This document shows, piece by piece, positions 2,155 through 35,598 of a stretch of DNA of 35,598 bases. Source of the stretch: Pseudomonadota bacterium (lineage in GTDB: Bacteria > Pseudomonadota > Alphaproteobacteria > Rickettsiales > RGZB01); contig RGZB01000017.1 of NCBI GenBank assembly GCA_010031735.1, positions 1-35,598 of the forward strand. Direction: 5' to 3'. The position numbers and the translations under genes were made by a program. Below the pieces are notes generated by a model. The model was given only the letters and a program-made list of their open reading frames with translations, was not told the DNA's origin and made no database searches. The first letter of the stretch is position 1; the number at the start of each line of letters is the position of its first letter.

Positions 2155-5100
2155 ATGAATATCTCCGAGTTATGTATTAAAAGACCGGTCTTCGCGACAG
2201 TACTAACCCTTGTGCTGGTGCTGGTCGGCGTCATTTCCTACCAACGCCTGACGGTGCGTGAATATCCGAAGATCGATGAGCCGGTCGTGACGGTGGATAC
2301 GACCTATCCGGGTGCAAGCGCAGAGATCATGGAAACCCAGATATCAAAAATCCTGGAAGACTCGCTCGCCGGTATCGAGGGCATCGAGGTGATGAGCTCG
2401 ATCAGCCGTGCAGAGAACAGCCAGGTAGTGGTACGTTTCACCGCTGACCGCGACCAAGACGTTGCAGCAAGCGACGTACGTGACCGTGTAGGCCGTGTGC
2501 GCTCCTTACTTCCGGATGAGGTGGATGAGCCTGTCGTCGCAAAAGTCGAGGCAGACGCGCAGCCGATTATCTATCTCGCGTTTTCAAGCGATCACCACAC
2601 GCCTATGGAAATCAGTGATTACGCCGACCGCTATGTAAAAGATCGCCTGCAGAACATCGCTGGTGTGGCGGACGTACGCATCATCGGTGAACGCCGTGTA
2701 TCGATGCGTATCTGGCTCGATTCCGCACGCCTTGCTGCCTATAGCGTGACCCCGCAGGATGTGGAAAGCGCTCTGCGTGCACAGAACGTGGAGATCCCAG
2801 CAGGACGTATCGAAAGTAAAACGCGTGAGTTCACTGTACTTTCCGAAACCGATCTGAAGACCACCGAACAGTTCGAGAACGTGATCATCAAACGTAACGG
2901 CGATGAATTCGTACGTATCCGTAACGTCGGCCGCGCAGAACTGGCGCCGGAAGACGTACGCCGTGTTGCGCGCTTCAAAGGCCAGCCGGCAGTTGCACTT
3001 GGTATCGTGAAGCAGGCAGTCGCAAACCCGCTCGATGTATCGAAGCGTCTTTATGCCATCATTCCCGAACTGACGCCTTCACTCCCGCCGGGCATGAAAA
3101 TCGAAATCGCGTACGACACCTCGGTGTTCATCGACCGTTCGATCAAAAACGTCTATCATACGATCTTCGAAGCCATGGCGCTCGTGATCGCCGTGATTTA
3201 TCTGTTCTTACGCAGTGTGCGTTCTACGTTCATTCCAATGGTGACGATTCCGGTATCGCTGATCGGCGCTTTCTCGATGATGTATGCGTTCGGTTTCAGC
3301 ATCAATACCCTGACGCTTCTCGCACTCGTGCTCGCGATCGGCATGGTGGTGGATGACGCCATCGTGATGCTCGAGAATATCTATCGTTACGTCGAAGAGG
3401 GTATGGACCCGATCGAAGCGGCAAAAAAAGGCAGCCGCGAGATTTCCTTCGCGGTGGTCGCGATGACGATCACGCTCGCGGCGGTGTATGCGCCGGTGGC
3501 GTTCCTGACGGGTACGACCGGTAAGCTCTTTACCGAATTCGCACTGACACTCGCTGGTGCCGTGATCATTTCCGGTTTCGTAGCACTGACGCTTTCCCCT
3601 ATGATGTGCTCGCGCTTACTCCGCCATGAAACGAATTACGGTCCGTTCATGCAGAAGGTCGGTCGTTTCCATGAAGGTATGCAGCTTTGGTACCAATCGC
3701 TGCTTGATTGGTCGCTCGAACACATGAAGCGTGTGATCTTCATCGGTATCGCGGTGGCGGTGTTCGGTGTCGTGCTGTTCATGTTGCTCAAGAACGAGTT
3801 GGCACCGACAGAAGACCGTGGTGTGATCGTAACGATCGGCATCGCACCGGAAGGTTCGACCATCGATTATATGTCGCACTGGATGCAGAAACTCGAACCG
3901 ATCTATCAAAACACGCCGGAGATCGCAAAATACTTCGTGGTGGCAGGCACGCCGACCGTATCGCAAGGTATCGGCTTCTCGCTGCTGCAGGATTGGTCTG
4001 TGCGCGATAAATCCCAGCAACAGGTGATCGCCGGCCTGATGGGTCCGATCTTCTCGCTGCCGGGCATTCTTGCCTTCCCGGTGAGCCCGCCGTCACTTGG
4101 ACGGAGCCCGCGTTCACAGCCGGTAGAATTCGTGATCCAGACCACAGGCAGTTACGAGGAGCTTAGCAGCATCGTTGGCCAGATCGTGGCGGAAGCATCG
4201 AAATCAGGCAAGCTTATCAACGTCGATACGGATCTCAAACTAAACAAGCCGCAGCTTGCGATCGATATCAACCGTGACAAGGCTGCATCGATCGGTGTGG
4301 ATATCGACGCGGTGGGCCGTGTGATGGAAACGCTGCTCGGCGGGCGCAAGGTGACGCGCTTCAAAAAAGACGGCGAGCAATATGATGTGATCGTGCAGAT
4401 CGCCGATCAGGACCGCACCACGCCGGAAGCGCTCGACAATATGTATATCCGTAACAACCGGGGCGAGATGATCAAACTCTCGAACATCGTTTCCACCCAC
4501 GAAACGGTAGCGCCGCGTGAGCTCAACCACTTCAACCAGATGCGTGCCGCGAAGATCACGGGCAGTATCATGCCGGGTTCGTCGCTCGGTGAGGTGCTGA
4601 ACCTGCTGAATACAAAAGCGCAAGCCATCATGCCGCCTACGATGCGTGTGGATTACGACGGCGAATCGCGCGAGTTCAAGAAATCATCCTCGAGCTTAGC
4701 CTTTACCTTCATCCTCGCGCTGATGTTCATCTATCTTGTGCTGTCGGCGCAGTTCGAAAGTTTCGCAAGCCCGCTCGTGATCCTGATGACCGTACCGCTC
4801 TCGATGACGGGTGCGCTCTTCACATTGTTCGTGACGGGCAATACACTCAGTATCTACAGCCAGGTGGGGCTGATAACGTTAATTGGCCTGATTACCAAGA
4901 ATGGTATTCTGATCGTAGAATTCGCAAACCAGCTGCGTGACCAAGGCATGCGCATCATCGAAGCGGCACGCAAATCCGCGACACTTCGCTTCCGCCCGAT
5001 TCTGATGACGGCGATTGCGATGATCCTGGGTGCGGTGCCGCTTGCGTTCTCGCACGGTGCTGGTGCAGAAAGCCGTGCACAAATTGGCTGGACGATTATC

Positions 5101-5205
5101 GGTGGTATGACGATCGGTACGTTCTTCAGTCTGTTCGTGATTCCGGTAGCGTATATCCTGTTCATGCGCTTCCGCCGCGATACGCTCGGCAAAAACACCC
5201 ACTAG
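2155..5205 (+). CDS. RND efflux transporter permease (AcrB/HAE1 family)
   Basis: 1016 residues, near the usual 1020-1050 of proton-driven RND multidrug pumps. It starts with the canonical MNISELCIKRPVFATVL first helix. The TM4 proton-relay pair is present (IGMVVDDAIVMLENIYR, D400 and D401), and so is the TM10 lysine (LIGLITKNGILIVEFA, K915), so the pump looks catalytically intact. Two large periplasmic loops follow TM1 and TM7. The protein would form a trimer in the inner membrane and export drugs or other amphiphiles through the adaptor encoded just upstream; an unlinked TolC-like channel is needed. The substrate cannot be read from sequence. The stop codon lies inside a CTAG that also provides the stop of the convergent hydrolase (4-bp overlap). 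Confidence 0.96.
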   Translation: MNISELCIKRPVFATVLTLVLVLVGVISYQRLTVREYPKIDEPVVTVDTTYPGASAEIMETQISKILEDSLAGIEGIEVMSSISRAENSQVVVRFTADRDQDVAASDVRDRVGRVRSLLPDEVDEPVVAKVEADAQPIIYLAFSSDHHTPMEISDYADRYVKDRLQNIAGVADVRIIGERRVSMRIWLDSARLAAYSVTPQDVESALRAQNVEIPAGRIESKTREFTVLSETDLKTTEQFENVIIKRNGDEFVRIRNVGRAELAPEDVRRVARFKGQPAVALGIVKQAVANPLDVSKRLYAIIPELTPSLPPGMKIEIAYDTSVFIDRSIKNVYHTIFEAMALVIAVIYLFLRSVRSTFIPMVTIPVSLIGAFSMMYAFGFSINTLTLLALVLAIGMVVDDAIVMLENIYRYVEEGMDPIEAAKKGSREISFAVVAMTITLAAVYAPVAFLTGTTGKLFTEFALTLAGAVIISGFVALTLSPMMCSRLLRHETNYGPFMQKVGRFHEGMQLWYQSLLDWSLEHMKRVIFIGIAVAVFGVVLFMLLKNELAPTEDRGVIVTIGIAPEGSTIDYMSHWMQKLEPIYQNTPEIAKYFVVAGTPTVSQGIGFSLLQDWSVRDKSQQQVIAGLMGPIFSLPGILAFPVSPPSLGRSPRSQPVEFVIQTTGSYEELSSIVGQIVAEASKSGKLINVDTDLKLNKPQLAIDINRDKAASIGVDIDAVGRVMETLLGGRKVTRFKKDGEQYDVIVQIADQDRTTPEALDNMYIRNNRGEMIKLSNIVSTHETVAPRELNHFNQMRAAKITGSIMPGSSLGEVLNLLNTKAQAIMPPTMRVDYDGESREFKKSSSSLAFTFILALMFIYLVLSAQFESFASPLVILMTVPLSMTGALFTLFVTGNTLSIYSQVGLITLIGLITKNGILIVEFANQLRDQGMRIIEAARKSATLRFRPILMTAIAMILGAVPLAFSHGAGAESRAQIGWTIIGGMTIGTFFSLFVIPVAYILFMRFRRDTLGKNTH

Positions 5206-6167
5206 TCCTTAAACTTACTGCATTCCTCGGCAGCGTGGACCTTCAGGCTATCGATATGGCGGGAAGGCTTCTTACGCATCCAATCGTAGATATCGTTTAA
5301 ATGGGAGATGTAATGCTCGCCCTGCAGCAGCAGATGCGGCTCATTCGGGAAATAGAGCAGGGTGGAACCCTCGAGCGATTCATTCAGGCGGCAGATCGCG
5401 ATCGACTCAATCATGCGATCACCACTGCCATACAAAATCAGCGCCGGCACTTTTACCTTCTCTGCATTATCCGAGGCGTCATCCGAGAAACCGAGCAGGC
5501 GGTAATACGTATCCATCCGCACCTCTTTCACCATGTTCGGGTCGGTGGTCACCCGGCGGGTGGCGGCGGGCGAGAGCGTGCCGTAAGAAAGCGTTACAGT
5601 GGAGCTTGGGGCAAAGGTGGTGGCAAGCGCCATCAGTGCATTGCCGCCATAACGGTAGTCGATATCCTTACGCACACCGGGAGCAGCCAGGATAATACCC
5701 TTGATATCCCATTCCGGGTGGCGTGCCAGCGTGGAGAGGATCGTAGCACCGCCCATGCTCTCGCCGAGCAGGTAAATAGGCGTCTTGCCATGTTTTGCCC
5801 GTATGGCGGTATAGGTCTTCTCGAGAGCCTCGCGCATGGCATCATCCCCGGGCCAGAGGCCTTTGTGCGGGTTTTCACCAAAACCTGGCTGGTCATAGGC
5901 ATAAAGGGCGATATTACGCTCGTTGAACCACGGTGCCATCTCGGCGAAAGCTTTCCGGTAGTCGGCAAAACTATGAAGCGCGATGATGACCGCTTGAGGA
6001 CGGGCTTTAGGAGACCAACTGCTCAAGGGAAGATCGGTCGGTACGGCGGGATCCGGACGAATAAAAGCGCATGCCGAAACTCCTGCCATAAGTAGCAGGA
6101 AAATAAGGGTAAAACACCAAAACCGGGCGCGCTTATTTAACGACAAAAATGACGATTGCGCAGGCAA
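5202..6167 (-). CDS. alpha/beta hydrolase, lysophospholipase-like, probable lipoprotein
   Basis: Up to 321 residues. The serine-hydrolase nucleophile elbow is clear (GESMGG, S137), and the acid (YGSGDR) and His (NEPHLLL) of the catalytic triad come later in the right order, as in the Hydrolase_4/monoglyceride-lipase group. The N-terminus has a basic stretch, a hydrophobic helix and a lipobox-like VSAC with Cys33, which suggests export and lipid anchoring. The start is unclear: the farthest start is TTG at 6167, another in-frame TTG lies seven codons later, and no ATG comes before the signal helix. There is no convincing Shine-Dalgarno sequence. It is convergent with the RND pump and divergent from bipA. 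Substrate unknown. Confidence 0.85.
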   Translation of the reverse strand: MPAQSSFLSLNKRARFWCFTLIFLLLMAGVSACAFIRPDPAVPTDLPLSSWSPKARPQAVIIALHSFADYRKAFAEMAPWFNERNIALYAYDQPGFGENPHKGLWPGDDAMREALEKTYTAIRAKHGKTPIYLLGESMGGATILSTLARHPEWDIKGIILAAPGVRKDIDYRYGGNALMALATTFAPSSTVTLSYGTLSPAATRRVTTDPNMVKEVRMDTYYRLLGFSDDASDNAEKVKVPALILYGSGDRMIESIAICRLNESLEGSTLLYFPNEPHLLLQGEHYISHLNDIYDWMRKKPSRHIDSLKVHAAEECSKFKD

Positions 6168-11717: not shown

Positions 11718-13065
11718 TTGAGAATTGCACGTATCGGATCCGTATTCCAACACATACCTCCGGAATGCTATGGGGGAACCCAGCGGAGCATGGCGCAGAT
11801 GACAGCCTTCCAGGCTGCGGTTTGTGCGCATGATATCACTATTTATGGTCCTCAGGGCTCGCAGATTATCCCCTTTACGGAAAACATCGCGGCACGGCTA
11901 GGTCTGCCTATTGAAATGGAAGAGAACCATATCCGTATTGATAACGGTAAGGGTAAGTTTGGTTCGGTGACCTTACGAACCATACCGTATGGCCCCACCG
12001 GCTATAATGATCCCACCTCGCAATTCAAAAACGATGAACTGGCAAAACTTTTGATTGCTGATGCTGCGATGAATCCCTTCGAATTGATTCACGTTCATTC
12101 CAAGATGCGTATTCCATTGCTTGCTGCTGCTGGCCTGCTGCCTCTCGTGGTTGCACACGAACATGATCTGCCCAGTTCCAATATGGAGATTCACCAAAGC
12201 TACCGTTATCCTGTTATTGCCATCTCCCAATCGCAGGCAGAGCATTTTTGCCAGATACACGACCCAAGACTATTGCTTGGGGTCGCTTATCATGGGCTTG
12301 ATTCCTTTACCTTCCACTACGAAAAGGATACACAAGGATACACAAGGATATCTTGCACATATCGGGCGCTTCGGTGAGGATAAGGGCGCACATCGCTCGA
12401 TCGAAATCGCAAGGCGTAGCGGAATGCCACTCATTATTGCGGGTACTACGAACAATCATGCGGGACATGAAGAATACTTCGCAGCGCACGTGCAGCCACA
12501 TATTACGGTGACGGATAAGGAATTCCTGAGTAACCTCGTCGGCAGGTCACGCGGGGAAGTCGCAAAGGAGATCGCGAAGATCCAATGTGCACACAATAAA
12601 AAAGCGGTGGTTATTTTCGTAGGTGAGGCAAACGAGAACGAAAAGCAGATTCTTTACGGCGGCGCTGAAGCGACGCTTTTCCCTATTAGCTGGTCGGAAC
12701 CGTTCGGTAGAGTGCTCATCGAATCCATGGCAGCGGGTACACCAGTGATTGCTTACCGTAAACTGGGCCAAATTGATACTGGTTCGGTAAAGGAGATCGT
12801 GGATGAGGGTATCACAGGGTATATGGTAGATGGTGTAAACGAGGAATCAGCCATTGCTGCCGCCGTCGAGGCCGTAGGGCGCATCAAGGATATCGACCGC
12901 TTCGGAGTGCGCCAACGCTTTGACGAAAAATGGTCTTCTGAGCGCAATGCCATACGCTTGGACGAACTCTATCAACGATGCATGGATATGCGCCTAGAAT
13001 TATATACCCACGCACAATTTACGCATCGCGACGATCGCGATAGTGGCATACCGACAAGGACATAA
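11718..13065 (+). pseudogene. family 4 glycosyltransferase, frameshifted by a 10-bp tandem duplication
   Basis: Two overlapping frames encode the halves of one GT4 (GT-B fold) enzyme. The first frame (11718-12377) has the N-terminal domain, MRIARIGSVFQHIPPECYGG, typical of this family, and ends in an unrelated tail after the break. The second (to 13065) has the C-terminal domain: IGRFGEDKGAH, the nucleotide-sugar region SWSEPFGRVLIESMAAGTPV with the conserved EPFG..xxxE, and GYMVDGVNEE. The break is at AAGGATACAC, present 2.7 times at 12324-12350. Removing one 10-bp unit gives one continuous frame reading HYEKDTQGYLAHIGRF. The start is a TTG, fixed by homologues that begin at MRIA. As written, no full enzyme is made. 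It may be a recent mutation, a switchable locus, or a sequencing artefact. Confidence 0.85.
12324..12350 (+). repeat. 10-bp tandem repeat (2.7 copies) at the frameshift
   Basis: AAGGATACAC at 12324-12333 and 12334-12343, then the partial copy AAGGATA at 12344-12350. A 10-bp unit changes the reading frame by one base per copy gained or lost. With 1.7 copies the glycosyltransferase frame is intact; with 2.7 it is broken. Confidence 0.97.
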
Positions 13066-20999: not shown

Positions 21000-23528
<2,529 letters not shown>

Positions 23529-29310: not shown

Positions 29311-29748
29311 TTAAGCCTTGGCTTCTTTGGGTTTACGTTTGAGGAAGGATTTTCGCGGTTTTTCTTCGGCCTCCGGCTCTGATGCCTCCTCTTTTTCTCC
29401 GACCGGTTCCGGGACAGGTAGGGATGCGCGTGTAGTAGCGGCCGATACCAGCCAGAACACCAGCAACACCAACATACCGCCTGATATGAAATAATCATTA
29501 AATAACAGATTATTAGATATATTTTGAACCAGTACGCCACTGATCCAGAAAACGGTGAATACCGTAAGCAGCAAGCGACGGCGGAGGGGTCGCGCGGAAA
29601 GACGTGCGATCGTAGCGGGGAGGAGAGTCAGCACGATATAGAATTCCCTCGGCAGGTTGCCGTAGAAATAAAGGGTCGTAGTGCCGATCAGTAATGCACC
29701 TTCCGCGATCCCGGTGCGGCGTGCGGCCCAGAAAGAAAGGGCGATCAT
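29311..29748 (-). CDS. C-terminal part of a split membrane protein (see 29748-30746)
   Basis: 145 residues from the ATG at 29748, overlapping the stop of the upstream frame by one base (TGATG). It has about four hydrophobic helices, then a charged tail (EKEEASEPEAEEKPRKSFLKRKPKEAKA). The same frame stays open well upstream of the ATG and reads RILDSYSTWRKLYPILWIPA before MIALSFW. This is a natural transmembrane continuation of the upstream protein. So it is probably not an independent gene but the end of a 478-residue protein disrupted by a one-base frameshift. Translational coupling of two real subunits is the alternative. Confidence 0.6.
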   Translation of the reverse strand: MIALSFWAARRTGIAEGALLIGTTTLYFYGNLPREFYIVLTLLPATIARLSARPLRRRLLLTVFTVFWISGVLVQNISNNLLFNDYFISGGMLVLLVFWLVSAATTRASLPVPEPVGEKEEASEPEAEEKPRKSFLKRKPKEAKA

Positions 29749-30746
29749 CAAACCTGCGGGTATCCAGAGGATAGGATATAGTTTGCGCCAGGTGCTGTAG
29801 GAATCAAGAATACGATGAAAAAACCATTGAGGCAGGCGGCAAGCGCTACGAATAATCCGCCAAGGAAGGTATGGCGAATCTGAACCAGGGAGAGGCCGAC
29901 CGCCAAGGTGGCAAAAGCCGCAAGTTGCATATAACCACCGCCGATGGTAGCCATATTCGCCATAGCATTGATGCCGAAATAGATGAAAGTAAGCCCCATG
30001 CCTGCAAATCCGAAGCCGAGCCAGACGAAGAGGCTGGTGATGAAGAAAAGCGTGATGTCGACAAAGGGTATTATCTCGCTACTATCCATGGTTTCGTCAA
30101 ATACCCACGGCGTTGAAAGAGGTAGGTATTTACTGAACACGCCGCCTAAATGCATCCAGAGGGGGCTTTGGATAGAAGGAGTGCCATGTACGGCCTGATT
30201 GAGCCAGCCAGGGAAACCAATCTGACGTAGATAACCTATCTCCTGCGTGAATTGCCTCCAGCTTTCTTCACTGAAACGGGGGAGGTAGATCTCGCGGCCC
30301 TCGATGATGGCATCTGCTTTGGGTAAGACGGTTTCCGGTACTTGTAGATTACGGACATAGCTGGTGGAGATGAGGGGTGCACCCGTAGTGCTATCGGCAT
30401 ACGCGGTAGTACTGTGCAGCCCGGTGTAACCTACCTCAACGAAATAACGTGCGGCGTAATAGGTATCGTAGAGTGCGAAGAAATTAACGAAACTTTGACG
30501 CGGTTTTGCGGTAGTCTGCTCGGCGGTCACTGCACGTGCTGGAAGTGCTTGATAGAAGCTGCCGAATTGCACATAGATCGCGAGCGCCACCAGGCCGAGA
30601 TAGAAAAGCGGCAAGCCCGGGCGCATGGTAGCACGACGCATGGAAAGCCAGAGAATCGCCCACGCGTTCACCAATATGAAGACGCCCAGCTTTACACTGA
30701 AAGGCAATCCTAGAAAGGCAAATACCGCTTTATGATAGAGTTCCAT
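29748..30746 (-). CDS. N-terminal part of a split polytopic membrane protein, uncharacterised
   Basis: 332 residues as read. There are helices near 15-35 and 45-65 and a periplasmic loop of about 140 residues, including GYTGLHSTTAYADSTTG and GHxP-less stretches I cannot assign. At least three helices follow near residues 232-320. The layout is reminiscent of GT-C type or other multi-pass envelope proteins, but no signature proves it. After NGFF the frame runs into IVFLIPTAPGANY and stops at 29748. Shifting by one base at the six-T run (plus-strand A run 29818-29823) continues smoothly into the downstream frame, so the gene is probably broken. Function unknown. Confidence 0.65.
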   Translation of the reverse strand: MELYHKAVFAFLGLPFSVKLGVFILVNAWAILWLSMRRATMRPGLPLFYLGLVALAIYVQFGSFYQALPARAVTAEQTTAKPRQSFVNFFALYDTYYAARYFVEVGYTGLHSTTAYADSTTGAPLISTSYVRNLQVPETVLPKADAIIEGREIYLPRFSEESWRQFTQEIGYLRQIGFPGWLNQAVHGTPSIQSPLWMHLGGVFSKYLPLSTPWVFDETMDSSEIIPFVDITLFFITSLFVWLGFGFAGMGLTFIYFGINAMANMATIGGGYMQLAAFATLAVGLSLVQIRHTFLGGLFVALAACLNGFFIVFLIPTAPGANYILSSGYPQV

Positions 30747-34510: not shown

Positions 34511-35598
34511 TTGAAGCCGGATAAGCAACATAAGAATCAAGTGCGCCAAATAAGAGGTGGTTTCACCTTGACGGAGGTCGCTCTCGTCATGACGGTGATC
34601 GCGGTGGTCCTCATGGGCATGCTTGCGGTTGCAAACCTCAAAAAAACCGGCCAAGGTCAAGCAATCATGTCGGAATACGGGGATAATACCCGCGGCATGG
34701 ATGTGTTCCGCACTACGCACGACAACCAATTACCAGGCGACCTTACCAACCCTAACGACTATTTCACGGATCCGGCGGCCAACGTACCGGGTAACGGTAA
34801 CGGCATCATCGATGATGCCCTGCGTGGGGGTCAGCCGACCGAAGTGACGGTCATGTTCCGTCAGATGCAACTCTCCGGCAATATGTCGGGTGATTTCACA
34901 GGTCTCCAGGCACCGACCGATACCGGTATGAAACTGGGTTGGAACCGTCCGGCCTCCCGCACAGCGGGGAATGGTTGGGACTTTACTTCCATGCTCGATC
35001 CGGAGTGGGCATGGGATCCGGATAAGCGCTTCTATAATGTCTGGCGTGTCCGCGGTGGTGTAGACATGAATGAGAACCCGGTGACCGTAGAGGTGCTCCG
35101 GTATATCGATAATAAGGTCGACGGCGGTGACGGCCCGACCAAAGGTGTGTTGATTGCCACCCGCGCCCACAGTGGTGCGGTTGAGCCCGTTGTACAGGAT
35201 GGTACTAGCGGTAGCGGTAAGTGGAATATTACCGCGGATGCTACCGGTGTGCCGAACTTTGTTACGAAAATCAATGCCGGGGATCAAGGTTCCAGCGGCT
35301 CTTCGGGTGGTTCGGGTTCTTCCGGCAGCTCGGGTTCTTCGGGTTCTAGTGGCTCTTCTGGCAGCTCGGGTTCTTCGGGTTCTTCCGGCGGCTCCGGCGG
35401 TTCTTCAGGCGGCCCAGGCTCTTCGGGTTCTTCCGGCAGTTCGGGTTCATCGGGTTCCTCTGGCGCTAGTGGCTCTTCAGGCTCATCGGGCAGTTCAGGT
35501 TCTTCCGGCAGCTCGGGTTCATCCTCTGGCTCTTCGAGTGGTTCGGGTACCTCGAGTGGTTCGGGTACCTCAAGCGGTTCGGGTACCTCAAGCGGTTC
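34511..35598 (+). CDS. prepilin-like protein with a long Ser-Gly repeat tail (partial, runs off the right edge)
   Basis: Open from the TTG at 34511 to the window end, at least 362 residues. A short basic leader ends in G17, then F18-T-L-T-E22 and a hydrophobic helix (VALVMTVIAVVLMGMLAVA). This is the prepilin-peptidase site G|FxxxE with the conserved Glu at mature position 5. The globular part has features of pseudopilin-like proteins: NQLPGDLTNPNDYF, a GNGNGIIDDA loop, and VMFRQMQLSGNMSGDF. From residue 260 on it is almost pure SSG/GSS repeats. The start is uncertain (a GTG at 34541 is possible). The 289-bp gap before it shows no gene, only a small palindrome CCATGC-TT-GCATGG at 34451. Either a pilin-type surface fibre subunit or a type II secretion pseudopilin. 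Confidence 0.85.
   Translation, partial: MKPDKQHKNQVRQIRGGFTLTEVALVMTVIAVVLMGMLAVANLKKTGQGQAIMSEYGDNTRGMDVFRTTHDNQLPGDLTNPNDYFTDPAANVPGNGNGIIDDALRGGQPTEVTVMFRQMQLSGNMSGDFTGLQAPTDTGMKLGWNRPASRTAGNGWDFTSMLDPEWAWDPDKRFYNVWRVRGGVDMNENPVTVEVLRYIDNKVDGGDGPTKGVLIATRAHSGAVEPVVQDGTSGSGKWNITADATGVPNFVTKINAGDQGSSGSSGGSGSSGSSGSSGSSGSSGSSGSSGSSGGSGGSSGGPGSSGSSGSSGSSGSSGASGSSGSSGSSGSSGSSGSSSGSSSGSGTSSGSGTSSGSGTSSG
35288..35598 (+). repeat. Ser-Gly coding repeat region
   Basis: The last 311 bases encode glycine and serine almost only, in SSG, GSS and SGG triplets built from variants of GGTTCTTCG and GGCAGCTCG. Codons differ between copies at third positions in the left part, so much of it is old or under selection at the protein level. 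It continues past the edge. Confidence 0.95.
35534..35598 (+). repeat. 18-bp tandem repeat (3.6 copies) encoding Ser-Ser-Gly-Ser-Gly-Thr
   Basis: TCGAGTGGTTCGGGTACC at 35534, repeated at 35552, then twice as TCAAGCGGTTCGGGTACC (35570, 35588 partial). The near-identity points to recent expansion at the growing end of the Ser-Gly tail; the array is cut by the window edge. Confidence 0.95.

Follow-up and report, generated by a model that had tools for sequence, protein, structure and literature searches.

The minus strand of the contig studied here carries, between positions 29311 and 30746, two overlapping open-reading frames (ORFs) that together resemble a single membrane protein, raising the question of whether they constitute one interrupted gene and, if so, where and how its frame was broken. 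The contig (C69), analyzed over its whole length of 35,598 nt and hereafter referred to as the window, belongs to a 2.38-Mb assembly in 251 contigs (98.68% complete, 3.35% contamination). Its end (35288-35598) consists of an array of 9-, 18- and 27-bp repeats that may explain why assembly stopped there, and at 21000-23528 (minus strand) it encodes what we judge from sequence to be a sigma-70-like protein with a long Lys/Pro/Ala-rich N-terminal extension bearing AKKPVAKKP-type repeats.

The upstream ORF (29748-30746, minus strand, 332 aa) encodes the N-terminal part of a GT-C-like membrane protein and ends in a short tail followed by TGA, while the downstream ORF (29311-29751, minus strand, with TTG at 29751 and ATG at 29748) encodes the C-terminal part of the same protein in another frame. 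The stop and start of the two ORFs overlap in the sequence TGATG (29746-29750, minus strand). An initial annotation had proposed that a one-base shift at a run of six T (T6; 29818-29823 on the minus strand, A6 on the plus strand) splits a single protein, and that joining the frames there restores 310 + 168 = 478 residues. Its ORF positions, TGATG overlap, location of the run and arithmetic are all correct. The upstream tail it described after NGFF also exists, but the full tail is IVFLIPTAPGANYILSSGYPQV (22 aa), the last four residues of which had been omitted. Inspection of the two frames reveals no stop in the downstream frame from 30078 onward, nor in the upstream frame as far as 29751; a switch anywhere within about 328 nt would join them. 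T6 is thus one possibility among these positions, unprivileged except as a run.

Neither piece contains further stops, and each displays gene-like codon usage, with codon log-odds of +136.5 bits over the 307 codons upstream of T6, +35.5 bits over 110 codons of the downstream frame and +22.5 bits over the 35 codons of a charged C-terminal tail (29314-29418, minus strand). Neither piece matched in a Pfam scan, and a scan of NCBIfam returned only a weak match (17.6 against a cut-off of 125 bits). Both pieces do match one and the same family profile (E 1.2e-40 for the upstream piece, 5.4e-12 for the downstream piece), and the downstream piece matches the same gene elsewhere in its own genome (contig C183, E 5.9e-9) that the upstream ORF retrieves. 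The two minus-strand frames are therefore real and are parts of one gene, as the initial annotation had maintained. The downstream ORF also contains one of the two perfect 7-bp tandem repeats in the window (29714-29727); the family match passes through it in a single frame, so there is no break at that repeat.

The relatives of this gene were collected in several steps. A search with the upstream ORF in 55 relatives yielded a paralogue in the same genome (P0002, 543 aa, on the separate contig C183, where it is intact) and a gene in genome G005 (P0003, 530 aa); two genes of genome G250 (P0005, 548 aa; P0006, 498 aa) came from searching 343 genomes of the order. Samples of the class (385 genomes) and phylum (398 genomes) contributed no useful additions, the four sets overlapping. 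Scanning the genome_contigs collection with an alignment of the four proteins returned nine loci, three of which (L012, L013 and L014) are the G005 and G250 genes again. Counting the paralogue P0002 and both genes on locus L016, and excluding a weak phylum match (L030, E 5.1e-4) and a weak, partial profile match (G062/L024, E 1.7e-5), the set comprises 11 distinct relatives. Across all of these searches, the best candidates for a close orthologue are only about 25-27% identical to the window gene. On the L016 contig, from a metagenome-assembled genome (MAG), the two GT-C family members are arranged tail to tail, their 3′ ends overlapping (2833-4416, plus strand; 4361-5929, minus strand). P0002 and P0003 are each preceded (L004, 19-1374; L003, 4-1383) by a gene judged from its translation to be D-3-phosphoglycerate dehydrogenase-like, a neighbour absent at the window copy.

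Pfam assigned no family at cut-off to the ten relatives scanned, with P0002 falling just under the cut-off for PF05007 (PIG-M) and one L016 protein just under that for PF09594 (GT87). The family was instead identified through an AlphaFold model of one relative, L012 (mean pLDDT 84.0, pTM 0.88). The closest structural match of this model is mycobacterial PimE (9dm5; Z 21.0, rmsd 3.6 over 360 aligned residues), followed, at Z scores from 16.1 down to 11.1, by GPI transamidase (chain U), ALG3, GPI mannosyltransferase I, ALG6 and ArnT. Foldseek likewise ranked PimE first (E 6.5e-4), whereas a profile search of the sequences of solved structures returned nothing relevant and did not find PimE. These structural matches of a predicted model identify the intact relatives as GT-C glycosyltransferases. 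According to PMC12041525, the proposed catalytic base of PimE is D58, supported by Y62, and both D58A and Y62A abolish activity. From its position and spacing, the acidic residue at family position 80 (E80) probably corresponds to D58 of PimE.

Comparison with this family reveals two losses in the window gene. Family positions E/D80 and Y84 are present in 11 of 11 relatives, and the window protein has A and T in their place; an aspartate three residues beyond position 80 is out of register. More broadly, 98 positions are invariant in the four closest relatives, and the window protein keeps 28 of the 64 that can be aligned, proportionally fewer than any of six other relatives counted (48/80 to 76/96, with a lowest value of 49/94). 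Profile coordinates served to place the window against its relatives, since a MAFFT alignment combining them put the downstream piece in the wrong position and was discarded. The second loss is a central block. The window matches model positions 34-310 at 30602-29793 and 420-526 at 29757-29434 (minus strand), leaving 35 nt for profile positions 311-419. In all 10 readable relatives the span 310-420 is occupied by 84, 106, 107, 107, 108, 109, 109, 110, 110 and 111 residues. Since 35 nt replace 84-111 residues, about 72-99 codons are missing in the window, a deficit that is invisible from the single sequence and is revealed by the relatives. Mapped on the L012 model, the absent part covers about residues 306-415 and comprises the end of one helix, a long helix (320-359), a loop bearing IGYRR and most of a further helix (390-427). 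The RR...P stretch of P0002 and P0003 also falls within the missing block.

The same profile relocates the change of frame. The upstream match extends past T6, and the HMM score of the upstream protein rises from 131.6 bits when cut at T6 to 135.2 and 136.1 bits when it continues to residues 318 and 322, respectively, 8-12 codons further on. We also trained a change-point test of codon usage on 17 long window ORFs; its best switch position falls 15 codons beyond T6 (near 29774) and outscores T6 itself by 7.0 bits. Under a flat prior, T6 receives a posterior of 0.003, positions at least 3 codons downstream 0.959 and upstream positions 0.0003. The control consisted of simulated single-base frame changes in these ORFs, with 2,171 cases in which at least 20 codons stayed open beyond the true switch; the cases overlap and are non-independent. 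The test missed by a median of 1 codon, 1.1% of the cases were wrong by at least 10 codons downstream, and 0.09% were so with a gain of at least 7 bits. The change-point evidence rests on the roughly 22 codons from T6 to the upstream stop, over which the summed scores of the two frames are nearly equal (0.6 versus -0.4 bits). By family homology as well as by codon usage, the upstream frame continues beyond T6, which disfavours that run as the site of the switch and leaves the one-base shift originally placed there unsupported. We regard this as good evidence, short of proof, that the frame changes downstream of T6, most likely within the interval 29757-29807 (minus strand) where the central block is missing. 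At the codon-usage change point lies a 5-bp tandem repeat, TATCC-TATCC-T (29768-29778, minus strand), a candidate trace of a small indel that was noticed after the fact. Two repeats with a 5-bp unit and at least 11 nt occur in the window, a rate of about 0.0025 per 45 nt, against 0.024 for repeats of at least 10 nt.

Taken together, we consider it probable that the locus is a broken, shortened and presumably catalytically inactive paralogue of PimE/PIG-M-like GT-C glycosyltransferases, in which the frame changes at the junction around 29757-29807. On the simplest account, a duplicated GT-C gene would have lost its conserved acid and its central block, with the frame broken where the block was lost. 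A single out-of-frame deletion could have removed the block and shifted the frame inside the same few dozen bases. Alternatively, the gene may first have been shortened in frame and later have suffered a small indel; the 5-bp repeat at 29768-29778 is then the leading candidate, its length being compatible with the frame change. With no relative closer than about 25-27% identity, either route may apply. The gene would now yield a truncated N-terminal fragment, and perhaps also a translationally coupled C-terminal fragment, with the enzymatic work presumably done by the intact paralogue on C183. The absence of stops and the gene-like codon usage of both pieces are no less expected of a recent break, of an artefact or of retained function than of decay, and with relatives only about 25-27% identical a shorter, functional subfamily is conceivable.

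Foremost among the alternatives is an artefact of assembly or sequencing, whereby the gene of the organism would be uninterrupted and the contig would be missing a stretch or carrying an extra short repeat. We find this unlikely, yet far from negligible. The assembly is in 251 contigs, and the same contig holds a second split gene, a group-1 glycosyltransferase encoded in two frames (11718-13065, plus strand; ORFs of 219 and 314 aa), the switch falling at 2.7 copies of a 10-bp tandem repeat (12324-12350). In genome G015 a relative of this gene is one 455-aa ORF spanning both parts, with 41% and 48% identity. One relative of the gene under study, L019 from a Rokuibacteriota MAG (QHSO01000031.1), is likewise broken, having lost about 120 nt out of frame with respect to its sibling L020, in a different place (about 3574-3602). 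In addition, a survey of 1,106 genomes (PMC3711429) expects homology-validated but non-conserved, singleton transitions to reflect sequencing error and not true indels. Against this reading, other long conserved ORFs of the window are unbroken, and a profile search of the assembly recovered only the C183 gene and the two C69 pieces, with no alternative copy of the gene or of the missing block. An artefact would also leave the loss of the conserved acid unexplained. The results support a mutation or an error of sequence or assembly as the cause of the split, the initial annotation having listed a recent mutation and a sequencing error; the break may lie in the organism or only in the 251-contig assembly.

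It is improbable that the two ORFs are separate, coupled proteins arising from fission of a GT-C-like gene, with the second translated from the ATG of the TGATG overlap. That overlap and the gene-like codon usage kept in both pieces are in its favour. The comparison that could have refuted a single split protein, had homologues consistently been two proteins, instead returned a single ORF across the region of interest in 10 of 11 relatives (L017 beginning at a contig end), L019 being the exception, and a conserved two-ORF pair in none. Moreover, the downstream frame before its ATG, at -0.4 bits, is not clearly non-coding, and the upstream piece retains just part of the fold.

An insertion, deletion or sequencing error of one base at T6 within a 478-residue protein is very improbable. 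The run does allow the frames to be joined, and indels are plausible in six identical bases, but the upstream frame continues in homology and codon usage beyond the run, and a further event would have to account for the missing block. Our confidence is lower still for a reading in which a GT-C-like protein, having lost its catalytic acid and central block, now works as a two-piece, non-enzymatic membrane scaffold whose C-terminal piece is made through TGATG coupling. PIG-U is a non-catalytic GT-C subunit, and by analogy such a scaffold would be its bacterial counterpart.

Programmed -1 ribosomal frameshifting at T TTT TTC, transcriptional slippage and repeat-based phase variation are barely credible, for although the heptamer fits X XXY YYZ in the correct frame, three stretches at or after it fold no better than shuffled sequences in a test of pseudoknot-free structures (z 0.56, 0.14 and 0.10), it occurs at background frequency (755 instances in the genome versus 737 for the reversed pattern), neither site nor switch is conserved among relatives that are whole in 10 of 11 cases and broken elsewhere in L019, the 5-bp repeat has only about two copies, and T6 does not coincide with the change point. 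PMC1088944 reports selection against A/T runs at nine nucleotides, variable but present in a large proportion of genomes. Of the mechanisms raised at the outset, programmed frameshifting is rejected on the grounds of structure, conservation and heptamer frequency, and homopolymer phase variation is unlikely for a six-base run that lies off the switch.

The case carries a caution for the reading of frames by eye: a homopolymer that allows two frames to be joined is not evidence that the frame changed there, and here relatives and codon usage relocated the change and exposed a missing block. If the disruption is real, it would record a duplicate glycosyltransferase decaying while an intact copy is kept, on a contig that carries a second broken glycosyltransferase.

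Set against known systems, the locus resembles dnaX-type programmed -1 frameshifting in having a slippery heptamer in the correct frame, and differs from it in that the heptamer is accompanied neither by downstream structure nor by conservation and the frame changes elsewhere; dnaX is also named in PMC3711429. The locus further resembles the non-conserved frame-disrupted genes and pseudogenes described in that survey, in that the frame transition of the window gene is not conserved between species and its relatives are unbroken; unlike those cases as described there, the window gene also misses a large block at the transition together with a conserved acid. With PimE, GT87 and PIG-M-like GT-C enzymes, the relatives of the window gene share a fold, judging from the L012 model, and the window gene itself retains sequence homology to the GT-C family; it departs from these enzymes in lacking the acid/tyrosine pair, with the conserved acid of the first extracytoplasmic loop, and the central block, and in being split between two frames rather than continuous. 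It looks like an ordinary case of a gene from a known enzyme superfamily that has been broken, with no special frameshifting trick.
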